The notes below the pieces were generated by a model. That model saw nothing but the letters and a program-made list of their open reading frames with translations. It was not told the DNA's origin and searched no databases. A stretch of 35,367 nucleotides of DNA. It comes from Pseudomonadota bacterium (GTDB taxonomy: Bacteria > Chloroflexota > Ktedonobacteria > Ktedonobacterales > JADMIN01). The first letter of the stretch is position 1; the number at the start of each line of letters is the position of its first letter. The stretch spans positions 1 through 35,367 of the forward strand of contig JAJPIU010000181.1 in NCBI GenBank assembly GCA_021324535.1, in the 5' to 3' direction. Made by a program: the position numbers and the translations under genes. Below, piece after piece: positions 6,012 to 29,920 of this stretch.

Positions 6012-6566
6012 CTGGTGGGCGAAGACGGTGGCGGGCGGTTGAAACCGCGCCTAGGGGCTGCGCCACAAAGGCCGCCTTCGCGGCCTGGAGATCGTAGGGC
6101 AAACAGGATCACCGTTGGGCAAACGACAGTGTATGGCAGGTGACAGGTGAAGATCGAGTAGCGCCGCAGTCCCCTGTGGTTCCGCAATCCATGCCTCATG
6201 GCCTTGACGCCATCCGTAACGAACCAGGCCTGAGGCGAGCGTCAGTCTGCGTAGCGCCCCACTCTGGGCGGCGTGTCTGGTTCGCTCAGTAGTCTCCCGG
6301 CGTGTGAACCTTCTCCTCATCCGATACTGGAACGGTATGCCTTAACTTTTCCCCTACACGCAGCACTCACCGACGAGGACGCTGGCGCTACGGGCTACAA
6401 TAACCGGCCACCCTCACTCCGATGCTCCCATCCACATGCCAATCAGGCAGCGCGACGGTGTACAATGAGTGTGTCTGGCCTGCTCCGCGCAGAACGTAGC
6501 GTAGCCACCTGCAATCATTCATGCTCGTTATCATTCATCTCGGTACACGATAAAGGACGAACCTCC
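6012..6566. other. Gap between the response regulator and helicase genes
   Basis: Besides the repeat at 6030-6088 this 555-base stretch holds a short direct repeat GGGCAAAC (two copies near 6098 and 6118). The helicase frame is open through much of it, but the translation does not resemble the family. I see no RNA gene and no confident promoter. Confidence 0.4.
6030..6088 (+). repeat. REP-like dispersed repeat, copy 1
   Basis: Two hairpins in tandem: GCGGTT-ga-AACCGC and AGGCCGC-cttc-GCGGCCT (6069-6086), joined by CCTAGGGGCTGCGCCACA. The same arrangement recurs at 14205-14259 and, inverted, at 18204-18273. It lies 18 bases after the response regulator stop and could also end its transcript. 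Confidence 0.75.
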
Positions 6567-9500
6567 ATGACGGCCCCTCACGATCCCAGGAATCCTGGCG
6601 CGCCTGACACCCTAAGCCAGTATCTTCCGCCAGAGCAGCAAGAGAAGGCTGAGCGGCTGCTGGATGGGCTGAACGAGCCGCAGCGCCAGGCCGTCACCAC
6701 AACTGATGGGCCGGTATTGGTGCTCGCCGGGCCAGGTAGCGGGAAAACGAGAGTTATCACTCATCGCATCGCCTATCTCGTCGAGGTAAAGAATGTGTTG
6801 CCGTGGAACATCCTGGCCGTCACCTTCACCAACAAGGCCGCCAAAGAGATGCGCGACCGCCTGGAAAAGCTGATCGGCTCTCCCGCCAAAGACCTGGTGG
6901 TTGGCACCTTCCACTCGATCTGCTCACGCATCCTTCGCCGCGAAGCCAATCAGGCGATGCTGGGCATTGATGGCAACTTCACCATCTACGACGACGACGA
7001 TCAGATCAAGTTGGTAGGCTCCATCCTCGACGAGATGAACTTTGATAGGAAGATGTTCGCGCCGCGCGCCATCCACGGCTACATCTCGCGCGCCAAAAAC
7101 GATTTGCTTAGCCCGGCGCAGTACAAGGATAGCGTCAACACCTATCGTGAGGAGATCGCCGCCCGCGTCTATGTGCGCTACGACCAACTGCTGCGCGAAC
7201 GCAACGCGGTAGACTTCGACGATCTGATCCTGCTGACCTACCAGCTCTGGCTGCGCAATCCCGACATCCTCCAGCAATATCAGCGGCGCTACCGCTACAT
7301 CCACGTTGACGAGTTCCAGGACACGAACAAGGCGCAATACGAACTGGTGAAGCTGCTGGCGGGCGGCACAACCGAGACGCCTGGGTCTCGCAACATCTGT
7401 GCGGTGGGCGACGACGATCAATGCCTGCTCGAAGGTACGCTGATCACGATGGCCGACGGCTCAGAGCGCCCCATCGAAAGCGTGCAAGCAGGTGAGCTTG
7501 TGCTGTCCGGCTATGGCAGCGGCGATTTTCGTCCCGCGCGTGTGCTCGCGGTAGCGAAGCGTGAACGAGTGGGCGATGGGATCGCCATCACAACACGCAA
7601 CGGGCGTCGCTTAATCAGCACGCCGGAGCATATGCACTTCGCTGGGTATCGCTTTGGCGTCACCCCACAAATGTATTTCACCTATCTGATGTATAAGCGG
7701 GGGACGGGATACCGAATTGGGACTTCTCAAGTCTACACACAAGGTCAGATCAAGCCTACTCTTGGCTTTCTTCAACACGCTCGTCACGAACATGCGGATG
7801 CGGTTTGGGCTATCTCTCTCCACGAAAATGAGAATGAGGCAAGGGTTGACGAGTACATCCTTTCACTGCGCTATGGTATACCAACTTTGCCTTTTGTCCC
7901 ACGAAAGGGCGGATCTCTACATGGCTTGGTGCATGATGAGCAGTATATCGGGCGAGTTTATAAGGCAATAGATTCGGCTTCTGGCGCGTTGCGGCTACTT
8001 GCGGATCATGGATTACAACCTGCGCATCCTCATCATCACCCACACTCGCGTGATTCCAAGCGACTTCACTTAATCATCACCCTCTGCGGCGATAGGCGGG
8101 GCGCCACGCCCATGCACCGTATCTCAATTGTGGGCAATGATCCACGGGCGCGCGAGATACTTCACTCGCTGGGATTGAGCGTGCGGCTGGCAAAAAAAGG
8201 CTCTGCAAGCTGGCGTTTCGAGTTCGCGAACAAGAGCATGGCGGCGCTCTTCACCATCGCGGATCGTATCAGCCAGGCGTTGGATGTTGACACCATCTAC
8301 ACCGCGCGGCTGGGCAGAAACGATGGAGCGATTATCGAAAGCAACTCGCTCCCATTTCTCCCCGCTGCCTCGGTGCGTAGGGGCATGGCGATGTTCGATA
8401 GCCAGGGCGGATTTGATCTTGTTGAGCGTGTGGAAACGATCCCCCTAGATGCGGCGGTTTATGACCTGAATATCGAGGGGACACACAATTTCATCGCCAA
8501 CGGGATCGTGACCCACAACTCGATCTACGCCTGGCGTGGCGCCATTCCCCAGGTGGTGCGCGACTTCCAGCAGGACTTCCCTTCCACGCGCATCGTGCTG
8601 TTAGAGCAGAACTATCGCTCTACCCAGATGATCCTCGACGCGGCGCATGGCGTGGTCAGACGCAACAGCGGGCGCAAAGACAAGAAGCTGTGGACGGAAC
8701 GCAGCGGCGGCGAGCAGATCATCCTTCATGAAGCCTACGATGAGAGCGAAGAGGGCGCCTACGTCGTCAACGAGATCAAGCGGCTGGTGGGACGGCATGG
8801 CTTCTCACTGGATGACTTCGCGGTGATGTATCGCACGAATGCTCAATCACGCGCTTTGGAAGAGCAGTTCATCCGGGGCGGCCTCAAATATGTCGTGGTA
8901 GGCAGCCGCAAGTTCTACGAGCGCAAAGAGATACGCGACACGCTGGCCTATCTGCGGCTGCTCTACAATCCCGCCGACCAGGTGGCGTTTGAGCGCATCG
9001 TCAACGTGCCCTCGCGCAAGATCGGCCAGAAGACCGTCAACGAGTTTCTGGGTTGGGCTCGTGAACAGGGCGAACAGCCGCTGGACGCGCTGGCGCACAT
9101 AGACGATCATCCCACGCTGGCTACGGCAGGTAAGAAGGCGCTCAAAGGCTTCTATGGGCTGATCACCCAGTTGCGCGAACTGGCCCAGGAGCAGCCGCTG
9201 CCCATCCTGATCGACTTCCTGCTGGCGCAGAGTGGCTACGCGGCGGAGCTACGCGATGGCACAGAGGAGGGCGAGGAACGCTGGCGCAACGTCTTGGAAC
9301 TCCGGCGCGTGGCCGAGGACTACGGCGAGATCGATCCTGAAACAGCGTTGGCCCTCTTCCTGGAGCAGGTGGCGCTGGTGGGTGGCGCCGACACCACACA
9401 GACCAGCAGTGAAGATGGCTCGCTCGTGCAGGGTCAGCAAGAGCCAGCCGTCACGCTGATCACGCTGCACGCCGCCAAAGGGTTGGAGTATCCAGTCGTC

Positions 9501-10181
9501 TTCCTGGTAGGGATGGAAGAGGGCGTCTTGCCGCACAGCCGTTCGCTGGATAAGCAAGAGGAGCTGGAAGAGGAGCGACGGTTGACGTATGTGGGTATCA
9601 CCCGCGCGATGAAACGGCTGTATCTTGTGCGCGCCTTCCGCCGCTCATTCTTCGGTGGCTCCATGCAGACGCAAGAACCGTCCCGCTTCCTACGTGAGAT
9701 TCCCGCCGAGGCGATCACCTTCTCGCGCCAACCCATGCGCCAGGATGACCGCGAGGGGAGCACAGGGCGTAGCAATGGCAGGCGGAGCGGCGTCGAACGC
9801 GAGCAAGGCGCTGGCAGGGGCAAAATCCTCCGCCCGGCGTTTGGCCAGCCACGCGAGAGACAGCCGGAACGGTCAGGCGTGCCCAGTCGAGGCGGCGCCA
9901 CACCCACGCCCTTCCGCCCTTCGACGCAGCGCAGCAACAACGGCTGGGGCGAACTACCGCCCACTGAATCGTCGGACGATGAGAGCGCAGCAGCGCCCAC
10001 GCCGCCCGCTGATTTCAAGCCAGGAGACAAGGTAGCTCATCGCCACTTCGGGCGTGGCACAATCCTCAAGGTGACGCGCAACGCCGATTCGACAGTGGTG
10101 GATGTCCTCTTCGAGAATCTGGCGGCGGGCAAGAAAACGCTTGATCTGGCCTTCGCCAACTTGCAGAAGATCGGGGAGTAG
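6567..10181 (+). CDS. pcrA: PcrA/UvrD-type ATP-dependent DNA helicase with an intein
   Basis: A superfamily 1A 3'-5' helicase used in repair and in clearing replication-transcription conflicts. The ATG at 6567 is preceded by AAAGGA; upstream in-frame codons lack a ribosome site. The precursor is 1204 residues, and 838 after removal of the intein (residues 286-651). Motifs: Walker A GPGSGKT (about 54-60), DEFQD (motif II), GDDDQ/SIYAWRG (motif III, split by the intein), QNYRS (IV), TLHAAKGLEYPVVF (V) and RRLTYVGITRA (VI). After a basic Arg/Gly/Ser-rich linker, the C-terminus PGDKVAHRHFGRGTI is the Tudor-like RNA polymerase-binding domain of PcrA, which favours PcrA over E. coli-type Rep. ATP hydrolysis needs splicing, because the insertion breaks motif III. 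Confidence 0.96.
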   Translation: MTAPHDPRNPGAPDTLSQYLPPEQQEKAERLLDGLNEPQRQAVTTTDGPVLVLAGPGSGKTRVITHRIAYLVEVKNVLPWNILAVTFTNKAAKEMRDRLEKLIGSPAKDLVVGTFHSICSRILRREANQAMLGIDGNFTIYDDDDQIKLVGSILDEMNFDRKMFAPRAIHGYISRAKNDLLSPAQYKDSVNTYREEIAARVYVRYDQLLRERNAVDFDDLILLTYQLWLRNPDILQQYQRRYRYIHVDEFQDTNKAQYELVKLLAGGTTETPGSRNICAVGDDDQCLLEGTLITMADGSERPIESVQAGELVLSGYGSGDFRPARVLAVAKRERVGDGIAITTRNGRRLISTPEHMHFAGYRFGVTPQMYFTYLMYKRGTGYRIGTSQVYTQGQIKPTLGFLQHARHEHADAVWAISLHENENEARVDEYILSLRYGIPTLPFVPRKGGSLHGLVHDEQYIGRVYKAIDSASGALRLLADHGLQPAHPHHHPHSRDSKRLHLIITLCGDRRGATPMHRISIVGNDPRAREILHSLGLSVRLAKKGSASWRFEFANKSMAALFTIADRISQALDVDTIYTARLGRNDGAIIESNSLPFLPAASVRRGMAMFDSQGGFDLVERVETIPLDAAVYDLNIEGTHNFIANGIVTHNSIYAWRGAIPQVVRDFQQDFPSTRIVLLEQNYRSTQMILDAAHGVVRRNSGRKDKKLWTERSGGEQIILHEAYDESEEGAYVVNEIKRLVGRHGFSLDDFAVMYRTNAQSRALEEQFIRGGLKYVVVGSRKFYERKEIRDTLAYLRLLYNPADQVAFERIVNVPSRKIGQKTVNEFLGWAREQGEQPLDALAHIDDHPTLATAGKKALKGFYGLITQLRELAQEQPLPILIDFLLAQSGYAAELRDGTEEGEERWRNVLELRRVAEDYGEIDPETALALFLEQVALVGGADTTQTSSEDGSLVQGQQEPAVTLITLHAAKGLEYPVVFLVGMEEGVLPHSRSLDKQEELEEERRLTYVGITRAMKRLYLVRAFRRSFFGGSMQTQEPSRFLREIPAEAITFSRQPMRQDDREGSTGRSNGRRSGVEREQGAGRGKILRPAFGQPRERQPERSGVPSRGGATPTPFRPSTQRSNNGWGELPPTESSDDESAAAPTPPADFKPGDKVAHRHFGRGTILKVTRNADSTVVDVLFENLAAGKKTLDLAFANLQKIGE
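7422..8519 (+). mobile_element. Intein in the helicase (motif III site)
   Basis: A 366-residue in-frame protein insertion. Splicing residues are visible: Cys1 of CLLEGTLITMADG (block A), TPEH in block B (ISTPEHMHF), block F VYDLNIEGTHNFIANG, and terminal His-Asn of IVTHN followed by Ser+1 of the host (SIYAWRG). All residues for standard splicing are present, so it should be active. The middle about 200 residues (YILSLRYGIPT, then LLADHGL and a His-rich loop) resemble the linker/endonuclease region of other helicase inteins, but I see no clean LAGLIDADG dodecapeptide, so homing activity is doubtful. The middle (about 7650-8000) looks AT-richer than the helicase, in keeping with separate ancestry. 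Confidence 0.95.
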
Positions 10182-23096: not shown

Positions 23097-24437
23097 TTAT
23101 TTCTGGCTTTGGCGCTTCGACTGAACAAGTTGTGCTACCTCATCCGCTAATGCTGCATATGCGGCAGCCCCTCTTGTCTTGGCTCCAGGCTCCAATGAGT
23201 CCAATTGGTTATCAAATGGAATCCGAGAGGTGAACGGGTATCCACCAAATTCTTGGAGACTGCCTTGAATTGCTCCCGGAAGATCAATCTCCACGAATCG
23301 CTTTGTGAGCTCCAGTGTATCCCAATGGGTGACGGCTGTACCCAAAAATCGCCCTTTTGTGCCAGTCAGAGCATCCATTGTGCGCAATGTCAAGAGCATA
23401 TTCCGCGTGCCAGAAAGAGATGCAGGCCGTGGCCGTACAGGAGCAAGTACGAAGTCAGCGGCTGCTAAACCTGCACGAGTGAAGACAGACATAGCGGGTG
23501 GAGTATCGAGAATAATCCAATCTGGCGTTCCTCCAAGATTCGCTATCATGTTATGCCGCAACGCATGTATATCGTGAATAACTTGCGTCTCAATGTCTGG
23601 GCGACCGGCGCCGCCCACGTCACGTAGTGTCAAGAAAGGATCGGAGGGGATGAGGCTTACCCCTGGAGTTTCCGTTGGGATGATGAGCTCTGCAAGTGGC
23701 TTCTTGCCCGAAAAGTAATGGACGATACTTTGGAGCTGAAAGCCTTGGTTACTCGCTGATCCCAATTGGTGTGGGATACATCGCTCAGTAAGATTACCCT
23801 GTCCGTCAAAGTCGATCAAGAGCACTCGTTTGCCTTGTCGCGCATATTCGACACCAAGGTAGTAGGCTGTCGTCGTTTTGCCTACTCCGCCTTTATTATT
23901 TGCAACCGCAAGGATGGTTGCGCCACCAGTGATACGAGTCGGCGTATTATTTCGTCCCGCAAAAAACTCCGGAGAGAGCGCCGAGATCACAGCATCGTCA
24001 TCATGGCGCGAACCTTGAATATAGGTGATGTATCGAATGAGTTGGGAGCCGTTTATGAGATAAACGCGCTTCCCCTCGGATTCTGCCATATCGTGAGCTG
24101 TGTCTTTGAAGTCGCCAGTCGTAATGACAAACGGTTTGACGCTTGGCTTACTGACGACGCTAGCGCCGCGCACATGCTGAACTACAGAAGCCGCTACCAA
24201 ATTGTCGTGGGCGTACCGCTTGCATTCAACCCCACCAAAGGTGCGCGTGCTTCCTGGCGCCCTGAACTCGAGATCAACTCCCCTAAGCCAATGCGGCCCA
24301 ACTTCCTTCACATCATAACCTGCTCGCCTGAGTACATAGGCAACAAATTTCTCAAAGGCCTGTGATGAGAGTGAATGCATTGCCTCAACCGTTGGGTGAT
24401 TGAAGAGTTCCGCAAATCTTGCTGGCTCTGCTGACAT
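23097..24437 (-). CDS. Mrr-like restriction nuclease domain fused to ParA-family ATPase
   Basis: A 446-residue fusion. Residues about 22-138 match the Mrr_cat nuclease fold: AFEKFVAYVLRRAGYDV (E29), GVDLEF (D55), VECKRY (E71, K73, the D...ExK core) and VITTGDF, a conserved Mrr-type segment. From about 174 a ParA/MinD-type ATPase follows: NNKGGVGKTTT with signature Lys182 and P-loop Lys187, LLIDFDGQGN (D209, D211) and WIILDTPPA. Both active sites look intact. Mrr domains cut DNA, often modified or foreign; ParA ATPases dimerise on DNA with ATP. A joint role in defence or in plasmid/island maintenance is inferred. Start ATG 24437, with an AAGGGTAGG site. No integrase or methylase is near. Confidence 0.9.
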   Translation of the reverse strand: MSAEPARFAELFNHPTVEAMHSLSSQAFEKFVAYVLRRAGYDVKEVGPHWLRGVDLEFRAPGSTRTFGGVECKRYAHDNLVAASVVQHVRGASVVSKPSVKPFVITTGDFKDTAHDMAESEGKRVYLINGSQLIRYITYIQGSRHDDDAVISALSPEFFAGRNNTPTRITGGATILAVANNKGGVGKTTTAYYLGVEYARQGKRVLLIDFDGQGNLTERCIPHQLGSASNQGFQLQSIVHYFSGKKPLAELIIPTETPGVSLIPSDPFLTLRDVGGAGRPDIETQVIHDIHALRHNMIANLGGTPDWIILDTPPAMSVFTRAGLAAADFVLAPVRPRPASLSGTRNMLLTLRTMDALTGTKGRFLGTAVTHWDTLELTKRFVEIDLPGAIQGSLQEFGGYPFTSRIPFDNQLDSLEPGAKTRGAAAYAALADEVAQLVQSKRQSQK

Positions 24438-25123: not shown

Positions 25124-28100
25124 CTAGTTCGCGCAGGTGTTTGATGGGCCGCAATAGACCGATTTGCCGCCGACCACCAGCAATACGGTGGTCGTCGCGA
25201 CGGGGGCTGACGCCGAGGCGTTCAGGTTAGGCGTCAGCTTCAAGATGGCGAGCGATTTCTGTGTTTGATCGCCGTTCAGGCTGAAGCTGATCAACCCACT
25301 TATCCCCTGAAACCCTTGCTGTTTATTGTTTCCGAGTAGGCTCGAACGTACCTGCGTCAGTGTGGGATAGATTATGGCTGTGGTTTGCCCTGGGGATGGG
25401 CTTGACTGTTTTCCTGGTGTCCCCGTCTGCCCATTGATGGGCGTCGCCTCAGCCAGCAACGTCACGGCGTCATACGCCAGGACACTCCCTGGATCGGGAT
25501 TGAGCAGCCCGCTGGGAATGCCGCTTTGCCCAAACACGCTGAGATAGTTTTGGTCGTAAAGCACCTGGTTTTGGTTTGGGTCGCCAACCGCGGCTGGCTC
25601 GAAGGCGTCGGCAAGCGCGGTGACATAGAGATCACCAAAGATGGAGGGATTCTGGCGCGCCACCTGCGCCAGCGGATCGGTTCCCTCTCCAAAGAGCGCG
25701 GGAGTATCGGCCTCAGCCCCTGCCAGCATGTGGTATGATACGCCAAGATGGTAGGCCGCTTGTGCTATGCCAACCGTATCTTGATCCGTCCCAGCGATGA
25801 ACAACAAGCTGGCGTTTTGTTTCTGCGCGACCTGCGCGGCTGCGGAGTAGCTGGCGTTATTTCCCTGCGTGACGCTCACATGGGCGACGATCCTGGCGCC
25901 GGTCTGTTGGTTGGCGCTTACTTCTTTGGCGAACCCCTGCGCCAGGGCAACGCTCACTGGGTCTTGTTCGTCAACCGCCAGCGCGATCTGGGTGTAGCCA
26001 AGCTGCTGTGATTGGATAACGGCGTCGGCAAGCTCACTGCCCTGTGTGACGACCGAAGGAACAATGGCAAAGTAGTTTCCTCCCATGGCGCCGCCAGTGG
26101 GAGTAGGCGTTGTGGTTGCGCTGGACGTTGACATTGCCAGCTCATCGAGGCCAACCGCTGTACCAATGACCGGTAAACCAATGCTTTGCATCGCCGTCAC
26201 CGCCGCCTGCGCCTGAGCAATTTCCGGCCAACTGATCAGCCCGACGATATGTTGGGGGTTGCCATTGTTAATCTGTGCGGCTAGTAATCTGGCGACAGCG
26301 GAGACACCGCTCGCATCCGGGCCGGAGTTGACGATCAGGATACGCGCCTGAACGCCATCCGGCAGCAGCTGGGAATTATTGATGATTTCTTGCGCCAGAT
26401 AGGCGCCCTGCAATTGGTCGCGCGCATCCACATCGAGGTCGGTTGGCCCGCTCGTACTGTTACCGCTGAAGGCGACGCCGACCGCGAACGTCACATAGGG
26501 CGCATGGTGGAGCACAATCGCAAGGTCGGCGACGTAGATCGCCGCCTCGGCGTCGCTAATATCCATCGAGACTGCCTGATGATAGTCATTCAGGGCCGTT
26601 TGTTGGTCGCCAACCGCCAAAGCGCGCACGGCCTCTTCTTTTAGGTTTGCGTCAGGCTGTTGTTTGTCGAAGACGAACTCGCCCGCGCTGATCCCGATTC
26701 CCTGTTGCTGGTAGAGCACAACACCTGGATTGGGCGTTGGCCCGGTGTTCGCCGGTGGGGCCATGTGGTTTGCCCCGCGCTGCGAATAGGCGACAAGACC
26801 CGCGCCTACCAACGCGATTAGCACGAAGATGACAGCTACCAGAAAAAACGGATTTTGCGAGAGGGCGCCTGCCCGTCGCCCTCTCTGTGCGCCTGAGGCG
26901 CTCTCACCCAGACGCGCCGCCACAGCCTCATCGAGATCAGGCAATACTCCCGTCAGGCCCGTGCCCAAGCGTGGGTCTGAGGCGCGTCCGGGGGTGCGTG
27001 TCATCAACGACGCCAGCGCCCGCCGCATTTCATCGAGCGTGAGGAAACGCTGCGAGGCGGATGGGCGTGTGGCGCGATTGACGATCTCCTCAAACTCTAG
27101 CGAGAGCGTGGGATTGACCCGCCGCATCATCTGCGTGGAGCCTGCGTCAGACTGCCGCCAGGGGGGAATCCCGGTCGCCATGTGACGCATCATCATCCCT
27201 AGCGCATACATATCTGAGCGTGAAGTCACCTGGCCGCGTGCCTGTTCGGGCGCAGCGTATCCCGGAACGCCGCTTGGCCCCATCACAGCATTGGTAGCGC
27301 CATCGGCGGTCGCCAACACGTTTGGAGAGATTCCAACCAGTGTGACGCTGCCATTGGGGCGAAGAATGACGTGCATGGGGCTGAGCGCGCCGTGCGGCAG
27401 TGGCGGGCGGCCCTCGGCAAGGCCGAGTAGCGCCTCGATGATGCGCAGAGTATACTCAACGACCGTACGTTCCGCCAGCGGGCCGCGCGCCCGCTGGATA
27501 CGGTCATTGAGAAGATCGCCGGTTGGCTCCTCAAATACCAGAAAATGGCGCCCGTTCTCGGTGAAGCTATCAATGACCTGTGCCGCCACCCCAGGAGGGA
27601 TGGCGCGGAGACGCCCGGCGATCAAAATGCGGCGGCGCTCGATAGCCTCGGCGTTGTTCATCGGCGAAGCGGCATAGCCTTCCTGTCCGTGCAGGGGAAG
27701 TTCCTGAATGAGTACGCTGGCGCTGGGTGTGTCGCTATCACTGGCGATCATCAAGGGCCAGGCGCTCTCCGGCCCGTTCATCGGCGTCCCACCAGGGGTG
27801 GCGTCGAAGCGCCGCAGCAGGCGGTAGCGTCCTCCTCTGAGGATGGCGCTCGGTTGAAGGGTGGGCGCATGCGCAGCGGGCGTATTTGTCAAAGGAGGAT
27901 ACTTAGGCATGGGGGGTATCCTCTGGGGAGCTCTCGGTGGAATGGGCGCGGCGCCTGGCTGAGGAGCCGATGGCGGCGCGAAGAGCGCATCGGACGGAAA
28001 ACGCTGTGGCGTTCGAGGAGGCATGCCCGCGCCGCTTTCCCCTGATGCGCCTGGGCGTCCGTTGGGTAGATTGGGGTTATTGAGTGCATTAAGAGAAATA

Positions 28101-28921
28101 GCGCCCATCCATTCACCCTGTTGGGAGTCAGGGATGCGCCCTGACTGCCCCAGCGGCTCGGTGGGCTGGCGAGGTCGCTCAGGGATCAGGCGCGGTGGGA
28201 AAGCTCGCCCTTGCTGCGCGTTTCCGTTGGACGTATCGGGCATACTGGGCATATTGGGCGCGCCAGGCATGTTGGGCGCGTTGGGAGCCAGTCCCGGTCT
28301 GATGGGGACACCGTAGCCTGGCGTCTGGCCGATATCGGGCTGGTAGCCGGATTGAAGCGGTGGTTGCGGTTGCGGGCCTGGGTACGGCGCGTGCGGCGCG
28401 TCGGCGCCGGGCAGCCGCCCATGCGCGTGCAACGCCTGGGCCAGCCAGGGCGGCGGATTGTCATCCGGCGAGAAGGCGGGAGCGCCTGGCGCCCCAGGTT
28501 GCGCCGACGGAGATGGCTCATCAGATGGGCGCGCCTGCGGCGACTGAAGTGGTTGGGGGAATGCAGGCGATGCAGGGGATGCGGATGATGGCCGCGATGG
28601 CGGCGTCGCGGTTTGCGTAGGCGCTTGTGGCGGCGGCAGGGCAGGCTGCGCGTCGGGCTGGCGCTCTTCTGGCGGTTCAGCCGGTTGATCCATGACCGCC
28701 AGCCGGGCAGGGTCTGGCGCGCCGGGTTCTTCGCGCCAGGTCGCCTCCACAGGCTCGGCGCTGCTTCCCAGTGGGGAGGAGTAGGGCGCACGGTGTGGCG
28801 CCGGATGGCCTGCGTTTCCTGTAGGCGCCTGCATGCCGTCGGGCTGGATGAGCGCTTGCCCACATCGCAGGCACGTTTCTTGTCCCTGTTCATTGATCTG
28901 CCCACATCGCGGACACTTCAT
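25124..28921 (-). CDS. Zinc ribbon-pseudokinase-transmembrane periplasmic-binding receptor
   Basis: A 1265-residue single-pass receptor. In order: zinc ribbon (C3, C6, C17, C20), a very long Pro/Gln/Ala-rich linker (about 25-355), a protein kinase-like domain (about 360-660), one membrane helix (about 687-712, NPFFLVAVIFVLIALVGAGL), then an extracytoplasmic domain of the type 1 periplasmic-binding (Leu/Ile/Val-receptor) fold (about 800-1260: YVTFAVGVAF, GAYLAQEIIN, VGLISWPEIAQAQ, LLFIAGTDQD). The kinase lacks its catalytic residues: HGALSP replaces HRDLKP, LVGIS replaces DFG, and the VAIK Lys appears lost (VLIQEL); APEQARG is kept. So it is likely a pseudokinase that binds rather than phosphorylates. 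Start ATG 28921 with AGGGGG upstream. Confidence 0.9.
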   Translation of the reverse strand: MKCPRCGQINEQGQETCLRCGQALIQPDGMQAPTGNAGHPAPHRAPYSSPLGSSAEPVEATWREEPGAPDPARLAVMDQPAEPPEERQPDAQPALPPPQAPTQTATPPSRPSSASPASPAFPQPLQSPQARPSDEPSPSAQPGAPGAPAFSPDDNPPPWLAQALHAHGRLPGADAPHAPYPGPQPQPPLQSGYQPDIGQTPGYGVPIRPGLAPNAPNMPGAPNMPSMPDTSNGNAQQGRAFPPRLIPERPRQPTEPLGQSGRIPDSQQGEWMGAISLNALNNPNLPNGRPGASGESGAGMPPRTPQRFPSDALFAPPSAPQPGAAPIPPRAPQRIPPMPKYPPLTNTPAAHAPTLQPSAILRGGRYRLLRRFDATPGGTPMNGPESAWPLMIASDSDTPSASVLIQELPLHGQEGYAASPMNNAEAIERRRILIAGRLRAIPPGVAAQVIDSFTENGRHFLVFEEPTGDLLNDRIQRARGPLAERTVVEYTLRIIEALLGLAEGRPPLPHGALSPMHVILRPNGSVTLVGISPNVLATADGATNAVMGPSGVPGYAAPEQARGQVTSRSDMYALGMMMRHMATGIPPWRQSDAGSTQMMRRVNPTLSLEFEEIVNRATRPSASQRFLTLDEMRRALASLMTRTPGRASDPRLGTGLTGVLPDLDEAVAARLGESASGAQRGRRAGALSQNPFFLVAVIFVLIALVGAGLVAYSQRGANHMAPPANTGPTPNPGVVLYQQQGIGISAGEFVFDKQQPDANLKEEAVRALAVGDQQTALNDYHQAVSMDISDAEAAIYVADLAIVLHHAPYVTFAVGVAFSGNSTSGPTDLDVDARDQLQGAYLAQEIINNSQLLPDGVQARILIVNSGPDASGVSAVARLLAAQINNGNPQHIVGLISWPEIAQAQAAVTAMQSIGLPVIGTAVGLDELAMSTSSATTTPTPTGGAMGGNYFAIVPSVVTQGSELADAVIQSQQLGYTQIALAVDEQDPVSVALAQGFAKEVSANQQTGARIVAHVSVTQGNNASYSAAAQVAQKQNASLLFIAGTDQDTVGIAQAAYHLGVSYHMLAGAEADTPALFGEGTDPLAQVARQNPSIFGDLYVTALADAFEPAAVGDPNQNQVLYDQNYLSVFGQSGIPSGLLNPDPGSVLAYDAVTLLAEATPINGQTGTPGKQSSPSPGQTTAIIYPTLTQVRSSLLGNNKQQGFQGISGLISFSLNGDQTQKSLAILKLTPNLNASASAPVATTTVLLVVGGKSVYCGPSNTCAN

Positions 28922-29161
28922 CTTTGGCCCCCTACTGCCGCCTACCATACTGGCGTTATTCCTGCGTGCGCTACCCCCATTGTACGCGCATGCGCTATAG
29001 TTCTCAACGTACATCTCCATCGTTCTGTCTTCGGTGAAGATACGATCTTTTGCGCCCCTGTGCTCTCATACCAGCGTATATGGCTATATCTTCGTCGTCA
29101 GCCATTGGCGCCAGGGCAAGAGCTGTAATGGCGCACCCTTTTTCTCGGAGTATTTTCTTCT

Positions 29162-29920
29162 ATGGACACGTCCTCTGTCATTATTCCCCCTCCTTCGCCC
29201 GCCGTTGAACGCAGCACGGTCGCGGCGACGATGGACTGGCTCTGGAAGGATACATTTGGCCGCGTGGTTCCCTTTGCGGTCGCGGCGGGTATCTATGCGA
29301 AGATGACCGGCGAGGGAGCAGCGGGGGTTGGCCTACCACGCTCGACCGCTCGTCAACTGTTTCGCGACGCCGCGCTGGGGAGCGCGATTGGCGTGCCGCT
29401 GATGGGGCTGGCTATCGCGTTTCGCGGCTGGGTCGCCCCCCGTTATCGCCTGCCCACCCCTGCGGATCAGGCGCTACAAACGACGTTTTATCTGGCGGTG
29501 AACGCGCCCGCCGAAGAGTTGTTCTGGCGCGGCTTCTTGCAGACGCTGGCGATACGCTCGGTTGGGCGCGTGCGGCGCTGGCTCTGGGGCGTAGCACGTC
29601 GAAAACAGCCAGCCGCGCGGCATGGCGCCCAGGAAGGCGCCGTAGAACAGACCACTGGCGAAGCTGTGGACGCGGCGCTGGGGTGGGCAATCACGACAGC
29701 GGTGTTTGGCGCGTACCACCGGCTGGGTGGCTGGAGCTGGCGCTCGATTGCAGGGGTGACAGCGGCAGGCGGCGTGTTTGGCGCGGTCTATCTGGCACAA
29801 CGCAAACGCCGCTCACTTGTGCCCTCAATCATCATCCATGGGCTGGCGACGGCCGGCTTTCTCAGTTGGGGAGACGCTGCGCTGCATGCGTTCCAGCGGG
29901 CGCGGCGAACCACAACATGA
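29162..29920 (+). CDS. CPBP-family intramembrane metalloprotease
   Basis: A 252-residue membrane protein with the CPBP/CAAX protease-like signature: EELFWRG (E118, E119, R123), His186 in FGAYHRLGG and His226 in IIIHGLATAGF, the expected metal and catalytic residues. About six hydrophobic segments. Bacterial members act in bacteriocin self-immunity, protein processing or signalling; the target here is unknown. A charged loop of about 30 residues (RRKQPAARHGAQEGAVEQTT) sits between the first and second motifs. ATG 29162 has GGAG 12 bases upstream. It is divergent from the receptor gene and ends about 135 bases before the TetR gene. Confidence 0.9.
   Translation: MDTSSVIIPPPSPAVERSTVAATMDWLWKDTFGRVVPFAVAAGIYAKMTGEGAAGVGLPRSTARQLFRDAALGSAIGVPLMGLAIAFRGWVAPRYRLPTPADQALQTTFYLAVNAPAEELFWRGFLQTLAIRSVGRVRRWLWGVARRKQPAARHGAQEGAVEQTTGEAVDAALGWAITTAVFGAYHRLGGWSWRSIAGVTAAGGVFGAVYLAQRKRRSLVPSIIIHGLATAGFLSWGDAALHAFQRARRTTT

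Follow-up and report, generated by a model that had tools for sequence, protein, structure and literature searches.

A predicted transmembrane receptor of Ktedonobacterales with a pseudokinase inside and a Venus-flytrap domain outside

Comparison with described pseudokinases and receptors

The natriuretic-peptide receptor guanylyl cyclases carry an ANF_receptor domain outside the cell, a single transmembrane (TM) helix, and inside a kinase-like domain that lacks the catalytic Asp (PMC2754085). Experimental work on bacterial pseudokinases is very scarce, and in a 2025 review none is presented as the intracellular part of a receptor that binds a ligand (PMC12599244). Among them, ActPs3 (MviN/MurJ of mycobacteria) is a mainly actinobacterial membrane pseudokinase in which each of the three catalytic motifs is degraded (PMC12599244). 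Our literature searches, which covered open-access papers only, found no bacterial pseudokinase linked to a periplasmic-binding protein (PBP) domain. Here we analyse a gene on contig JAJPIU010000181.1 of a Ktedonobacterales genome (the window, a stretch of 35,367 nucleotides), whose product very probably is a membrane receptor with an external sensor. The full reading, which we consider likely, is a single-pass receptor in which a TPR-like stalk carries the external Venus-flytrap domain and one TM helix leads to a dead kinase fold inside, which would signal non-catalytically.

The nearest relatives of this protein, both in a tree of the kinase part and in a tree of the PBP part, are intact kinase-TM-PBP receptors of Ktedonobacterales (Ktedonobacter, Dictyobacter, Thermosporothrix; L039, L041, L046, L135-L159), which share its order of parts: zinc ribbon, kinase, TM helix, TPR-like hairpin and PBP domain. 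The intact receptors keep the motifs VVIKEL, HRDIKPANI and VDFGI, whereas the clade of the window protein has lost these entirely; they also keep GW-P-x-S, GY and GGDALY in the outer domain, which that clade has largely lost. A protein type joining a kinase to a substrate-binding protein is annotated in Streptomyces as well.

Published pseudokinase families were set against a motif census of 23 orthologs from three families of Ktedonobacterales (f1, to which the window genome belongs, f2 and f3). ActPs3 is alike in being a bacterial membrane pseudokinase, in many cases with the TM helix C-terminal to the domain (PMC12599244). It differs in its motifs, which in MviN read VALT, LSIDHPSR and Y-- and are accompanied by an activation-loop deletion, and descriptions of it mention no external PBP domain (PMC12599244); the window group instead has HG[AN]x[ST]P and keeps APE, and the HRD His, whose loss marks ActPs3, is present in 23 of 23 orthologs. 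ActPs2 is defined by a beta3 Arg, HRN and an activation-loop insertion of ~250 amino acids (PMC12599244), while our orthologs have Gly at the HRD Arg position throughout and no such insertion. ActPs1, compared by description, also has three catalytic residues substituted; it is mainly actinobacterial and often has a C-terminal PQQ_2 domain, whereas the window group belongs to another phylum and shows no PQQ domain in Pfam. The GLW pseudokinases, with GLW for HRD, differ from orthologs that have HG[AN] or near variants, and the DYD pseudokinases, with a beta3 Arg and DYD for DFG, differ from orthologs without Asp at the DFG position (23/23). CP1 (linked to COG3899) and DLHK (often with helicase domains) both lack a TM helix, which the window protein has, and it has neither of those domains (Pfam). 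Judged by motif set and architecture together, it fits none of the published bacterial pseudokinase families ActPs2, ActPs3, GLW, CP1, DYD and DLHK, and probably not ActPs1 either.

With the natriuretic-peptide receptors the protein shares the layout of an ANF_receptor domain outside, one TM helix and a kinase-like domain without catalytic Asp inside. The chain order is however opposite, the kinase part being N-terminal in the window protein, and no counterpart of their cyclase was found in it (Pfam). In addition, its kinase domain is kin to bacterial PknB (Foldseek), unlike the tyrosine-kinase kin of the natriuretic-peptide receptors. The likeness is convergent, and the two are not homologous as systems; because of the reversed order and the missing cyclase, the protein would work like the front half of such a receptor without being a member of the group. 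The LivJ and LivK binding proteins have the fold of the outer domain in common (3td9, 4gnr, 1usg). Unlike these, the outer domain is tethered to a TM signalling protein, adjoins no ATP-binding cassette (ABC) transporter and has its ligand residues replaced.

Catalytic residues, structural core and selection

In the window protein all three catalytic motifs are replaced (Table 1), while APE and the fold remain; the original prediction had read as much from the sequence, and both the alignment and the structural model now agree with it. The same loss runs through the orthologs, none of which has the beta3 Lys, HRD Asp or DFG Asp of an active bacterial Ser/Thr kinase. The beta3 position holds Gln, Arg, Leu, Tyr, His, Ala or Val, the HRD Asp is replaced by Ala (14 orthologs), Asn (6), Glu (2) or Met (1), and the position of the DFG Asp varies freely (Gly, Leu, Tyr, Phe, Asn, Val, Ser, His). 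Equally absent from all 23 are the alphaC Glu (Arg in 19, Lys in 2, His and Gln in one each), the HRD Arg, the catalytic-loop Lys (Ser in 19, Thr in 3, Cys in 1) and the DFG Gly. Structural residues persist, with APE Pro in 23/23 and APE Glu in 22/23 alongside the HRD His, and the alphaF Asp is likewise retained.

Every motif is kept in 24 of 24 intact kinase-PBP paralogs with the same outer domain, and the other Ser/Thr kinases of the window genome (20 aligned) retain HRD Arg, HRD Asp, Lys, Asn and DFG, with HRD Asp and DFG in 20/20 and the beta3 Lys in 19 of 19 aligned. The loss is therefore lineage-wide and specific to catalysis. Orthologs with intact HRD or DFG, named beforehand as evidence against a non-catalytic kinase, did not turn up among the 23, and this part of the original prediction stands. 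With its fold kept, its catalytic residues lost and the domain under selection in relatives, the group has the general traits of bacterial pseudokinases, and we predict that the fold is very probably dead as a protein kinase.

AlphaFold2 modelling supports the retention of the core. With the 23 orthologs as alignment, the kinase part is modelled with a predicted local distance difference test score (pLDDT) of 83.4 and a predicted template modelling score (pTM) of 0.85 in the usual bilobal order of elements. Its best Foldseek matches in the PDB include Staphylococcus Stk1/PknB and the mycobacterial PknA, PknF and PknI, with about two thousand further kinase chains behind them.

The pocket itself bears on the possibility that the fold has been repurposed for other ATP-dependent chemistry, such as AMPylation or glutamylation, or binds nucleotide via migrated residues. 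Such repurposing occurs in bacterial pseudokinases, as in SelO and SidJ (PMC12599244). SelO, however, retains DYG, and SidJ retains the VAIK Lys as well as DLG (PMC12599244); in the window group, none of the 23 orthologs has the metal-binding Asp, and its position is free. The conserved HG[AN]x[ST]P, or a near variant, where HRDxKP would stand, together with the basic alphaC residue, points to a pocket under some constraint; against other ATP chemistry speaks the glycine loop, which shows neither order nor conservation (model residues 34-44, pLDDT below 50). Altogether we regard repurposing as unlikely and signalling by scaffolding or allostery, not by some other chemistry, as quite probable.

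In the kinase tree the pseudokinase receptors form one clade (support 100/99), and the same group appears in the PBP tree, calculated from an alignment without kinase columns (Shimodaira-Hasegawa-like approximate likelihood ratio test, 99), with the one exception of a Tengunoibacter protein that carries an NB-ARC head where the others have the pseudokinase. Because the PBP domain yields the same group, we do not favour long-branch attraction as the cause of the dead-kinase grouping. Members occur in 6/11 genomes of f1, 6/6 of f3 and 12/29 of f2, in some cases truncated at a contig end, and include Ktedonosporobacter rubrisoli (NZ_CP035758.1), Ktedonobacter robiniae, Ktedonobacter sp. SOSP1-85, Thermogemmatispora species, Dictyobacter arantiisoli and isolate brp13. 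Outside the class, no full-length match approached these scores in a phylum-wide sample.

The ratio of nonsynonymous to synonymous substitution rates (dN/dS) among five copies of the Thermogemmatispora group is 0.062 for the pseudokinase domain and 0.074 for the outer PBP domain; in intact array paralogs it is 0.034 for the kinase and 0.093 for the outer domain. The N-terminal part is less constrained (0.16 in pseudokinases, 0.48 in intact paralogs), and other close pairs give 0.035 (f3), 0.10 (g8) and 0.29 (g25, at very small divergence). In these relatives purifying selection acts on the dead domain, whose low ratios mean that it is maintained. This argues strongly against a relic, that is, a kinase receptor in decay without a function of its own; the loss of catalytic residues only, with structural ones kept, also speaks against it. 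The reading frame is moreover intact over 1265 codons in the window and open in the full-length members, even though the loss of catalysis is common to three families. Decay would be in keeping with the long branch of the window copy, the erosion of its PBP contact residues and the absence of the gene from some f1 and f2 genomes; we nonetheless hold it to be very unlikely.

Outer domain, receptor repertoire and proposed signalling

The outer part is a Venus-flytrap domain by its ANF_receptor match, its model (pLDDT 85.6, pTM 0.89) and its Foldseek matches, led by LivK (3td9), HAAT, LivJ (4gnr), 1usg and 4obb and followed by ectodomains of class C G protein-coupled receptors (mGluR/CaSR). The Trp of the first ligand loop is invariant, and intact paralogs retain the alpha-amino-acid-binding signature GW-P-[YF]-S, GY and GGDALY. 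In LivJ, a Ser and a Thr hold the carboxylate of the ligand and an acidic residue holds its amino group. At the three places aligned with these the window protein has Ile for Ser, Gly for Thr and Ala for Glu/Asp, in an alignment at ~17% identity, so that its residues do not agree with amino-acid binding of the LivJ type. An assignment to the branched-chain amino-acid receptor kind had been made at the outset; it holds for the fold, while the ligand contacts are mostly lost. With these contacts largely gone in f1 and f3, an amino-acid ligand should not be assumed, and the ligand in the lineage of the window is probably not a branched-chain amino acid.

The TPR and PBP outer module is also found on other heads, fused to a TIR domain in Ktedonosporobacter rubrisoli (L178:1529-3919), to an NB-ARC STAND ATPase in Tengunoibacter (L042:1441-4410), to an AAA_16 and TPR head in brp13 (L168:652-4536) and to a TPR head (L163:1678-4401). 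These predicted fusions make up a modular receptor repertoire in Ktedonobacterales, of which we found no description in the open-access literature. As the NB-ARC head lies inside the pseudokinase clade of the PBP tree, a non-phosphorylating output appears to be tolerated on this receptor. Outside the class, a genome from another family of the phylum encodes an intact kinase-PBP receptor with a zinc ribbon (L173:971-3631), whose position in the PBP tree is close to the base. Tandem arrays of Thermogemmatispora (L051-L055, L059) hold neighbouring kinase-PBP paralogs with graded motif loss: intact, DFG changed (VGFSV, VDFSV), HCDIKPAK, and HGDIKPTN with VNLxP; dN/dS is low in the array sets that were measured. 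The same genus has pseudokinases without a PBP domain, of 374 amino acids (L174:906-2027; HGSINPETI, IHIPL) and 697 amino acids (L179:1300-3393; HGLIRPEHI, TNFSI).

The receptor reading builds on topology elements, residue loss, a retained structural core and purifying selection in relatives, all taken from sequence, and from there the mechanism can be sketched as follows. Binding or release of a ligand outside would shift the TM helix, whose movement would change the conformation or the dimer state of the pseudokinase. The latter would act as an allosteric docking platform instead of an enzyme and recruit or release cytoplasmic partners. Precedents are the membrane pseudokinase MviN, which recruits FhaA through its phosphorylated tail, and the scaffold EssB/YukC (PMC12599244). 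The likeliest output might be the regulated recruitment of an active Ser/Thr kinase and/or of FHA proteins that read phospho-Thr in the Pro-rich linker. Potential partners exist, since the window genome has 17 matches to FHA and, beyond this gene, ~34 to Pkinase; that the partners are of these kinds is a tentative suggestion.

Several points weigh against this picture. Pseudokinases can bind ATP or catalyse other reactions, as SelO and SidJ do (PMC12599244). The outer domain could bind something other than an amino acid, a protein, or nothing, and the amino-acid signature survives in parts of f2 and is mostly gone from f1 and f3 within the pseudokinase clade itself. Selection was measured in relatives and not on the copy in the window, which lacks close relatives and sits on a long branch (1.31) in the kinase tree. 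Finally, apart from a CAAX protease in f1, the ortholog loci have no conserved neighbour gene, and the partner therefore cannot be read from an operon.

A further possibility is that the protein serves as a regulatory subunit of an intact kinase-PBP receptor, as HER3 does with HER2. In f2, intact kinase-PBP paralogs are abundant and frequently lie in tandem arrays, and dimer formation through the N-lobes is described for bacterial Ser/Thr kinase domains (PMC12599244). In 11 genomes of f1, on the other hand, no intact kinase-PBP protein was found (completeness 58-91%, so that absence is not proof), and the only other PBP matches there are stand-alone LivJ-type proteins. Pairing within f1 would thus need a different kind of kinase; an intact receptor of the same genome is not supported as partner there, and we judge the subunit role improbable.

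The dead state is common to three families, and the intact sister receptors in culturable species provide natural controls. Together with the outer module on other heads, this makes non-catalytic transmembrane signalling by a kinase fold, a question of long standing, directly testable in bacteria. The conservation of a dead-kinase receptor in the order suggests signalling without phosphorylation. We speculate that these proteins could form an order-wide family of cell-surface receptors with the pseudokinase as sole cytoplasmic output, acting as adaptor, within a Venus-flytrap repertoire of intact kinase, pseudokinase, TIR, NB-ARC and AAA/TPR heads, as a counterpart of natriuretic-peptide-like or innate-immunity-like receptors; this broader proposal is possible at best. 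PADLOC matches to PD-T4-6 and others cover little beyond the kinase fold and were not taken as evidence of phage defence.

Gene layout and neighbourhood

The features of the locus are collected in Table 1. The open frame extends over 25124-29020 (-), with the ATG at 28921 internal to it. This ATG (MKCPRCG) is preferred over the longer frame because orthologs begin with M-x-C-P-x-C, and an AGGGGG just upstream is in line with a start there, which makes it the likely start codon. Pfam positions refer to a 1298-residue form, from which 33 is subtracted to obtain the numbering of the 1265-residue protein.

Table 1. Coordinates of the receptor gene, its parts and its neighbour in the window
Feature	Position	Strand	Evidence
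Receptor pseudokinase, whole gene, 1265 aa	25124..28921	-	ATG at 28921, stop 25124
N-terminal zinc ribbon (CPRC...CLRC), residues 2-23	28853..28918	-	Pfam Zn_Ribbon_1, Cys pairs
Long Pro-rich cytoplasmic linker, ~325 residues	27860..28834	-	Pro content
Pseudokinase domain, residues ~355-642	26996..27859	-	Pfam Pkinase, AlphaFold, Foldseek
Gln at beta3 ATP-binding Lys position (VLIQE for VAIK)	27704..27706	-	Alignment
Catalytic loop HGALSPMHV for HRDxKPxxN	27368..27394	-	Alignment
GIS for DFG (VGIS for xDFG)	27326..27334	-	Alignment
Single TM helix, residues ~692-712	26786..26848	-	Hydropathy 2.8 over 21 residues
Extracellular TPR-like helical hairpin, residues ~758-804	26510..26650	-	Model helices, profile match
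Type I periplasmic-binding (Venus-flytrap) domain, to C-terminus	25127..26506	-	ANF_receptor, AlphaFold, Foldseek
CAAX-type (Rce1-like) membrane protease, divergently transcribed	29162..29920	+	Pfam Rce1-like

From N- to C-terminus the protein consists of zinc ribbon, Pro-rich linker, kinase fold, Arg-rich segment, TM helix, TPR-like hairpin and type I PBP domain. The Zn_Ribbon_1 match (35-56 in the 1298-residue numbering, E 7e-4) lies below the curated cut-off, and all 20 orthologs for which the N-terminus is available show its CxxC-x10-CxxC pattern. Pro makes up 21% of the part ahead of the kinase in the window protein, 15-23% in f1 and f3 and 4-12% in f2, where the linker is short; in f1 and f3 it is long. 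Pfam places Pkinase at 481-636 (E 1e-8, above cut-off) and ANF_receptor at 873-1264 (E 9e-6, at cut-off), again in the 1298-residue numbering. The TM helix is Arg-rich on its kinase side, and RDARxRR is conserved ahead of it. In gene limits, in the zinc ribbon and long Pro-rich linker, and in a kinase fold inside with a periplasmic-binding domain outside, the original prediction agrees with these data, and the structure predictions it had proposed returned both expected folds. The TPR-like hairpin between TM helix and PBP domain is an addition to it: the outer model has helices at 16-27, 31-44 and 49-62, and profile comparison matches its initial 60 residues to TPR proteins, including consensus TPR proteins.

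The CAAX protease adjoins the ortholog in 5/5 f1 genomes with flanks, the window counted, and is thus a conserved neighbour in f1 whose part in the receptor system is only putative. Elsewhere in the window, 6273-10181 (+) encodes a PcrA/UvrD helicase with its halves split by an apparent intein (Intein_splicing, weak Hom_end_hint), and in the product of 23097-24437 (-) an Mrr-type restriction endonuclease domain (residues 21-136) is fused, unusually, to a ParA/MinD-like ATPase (174-354).

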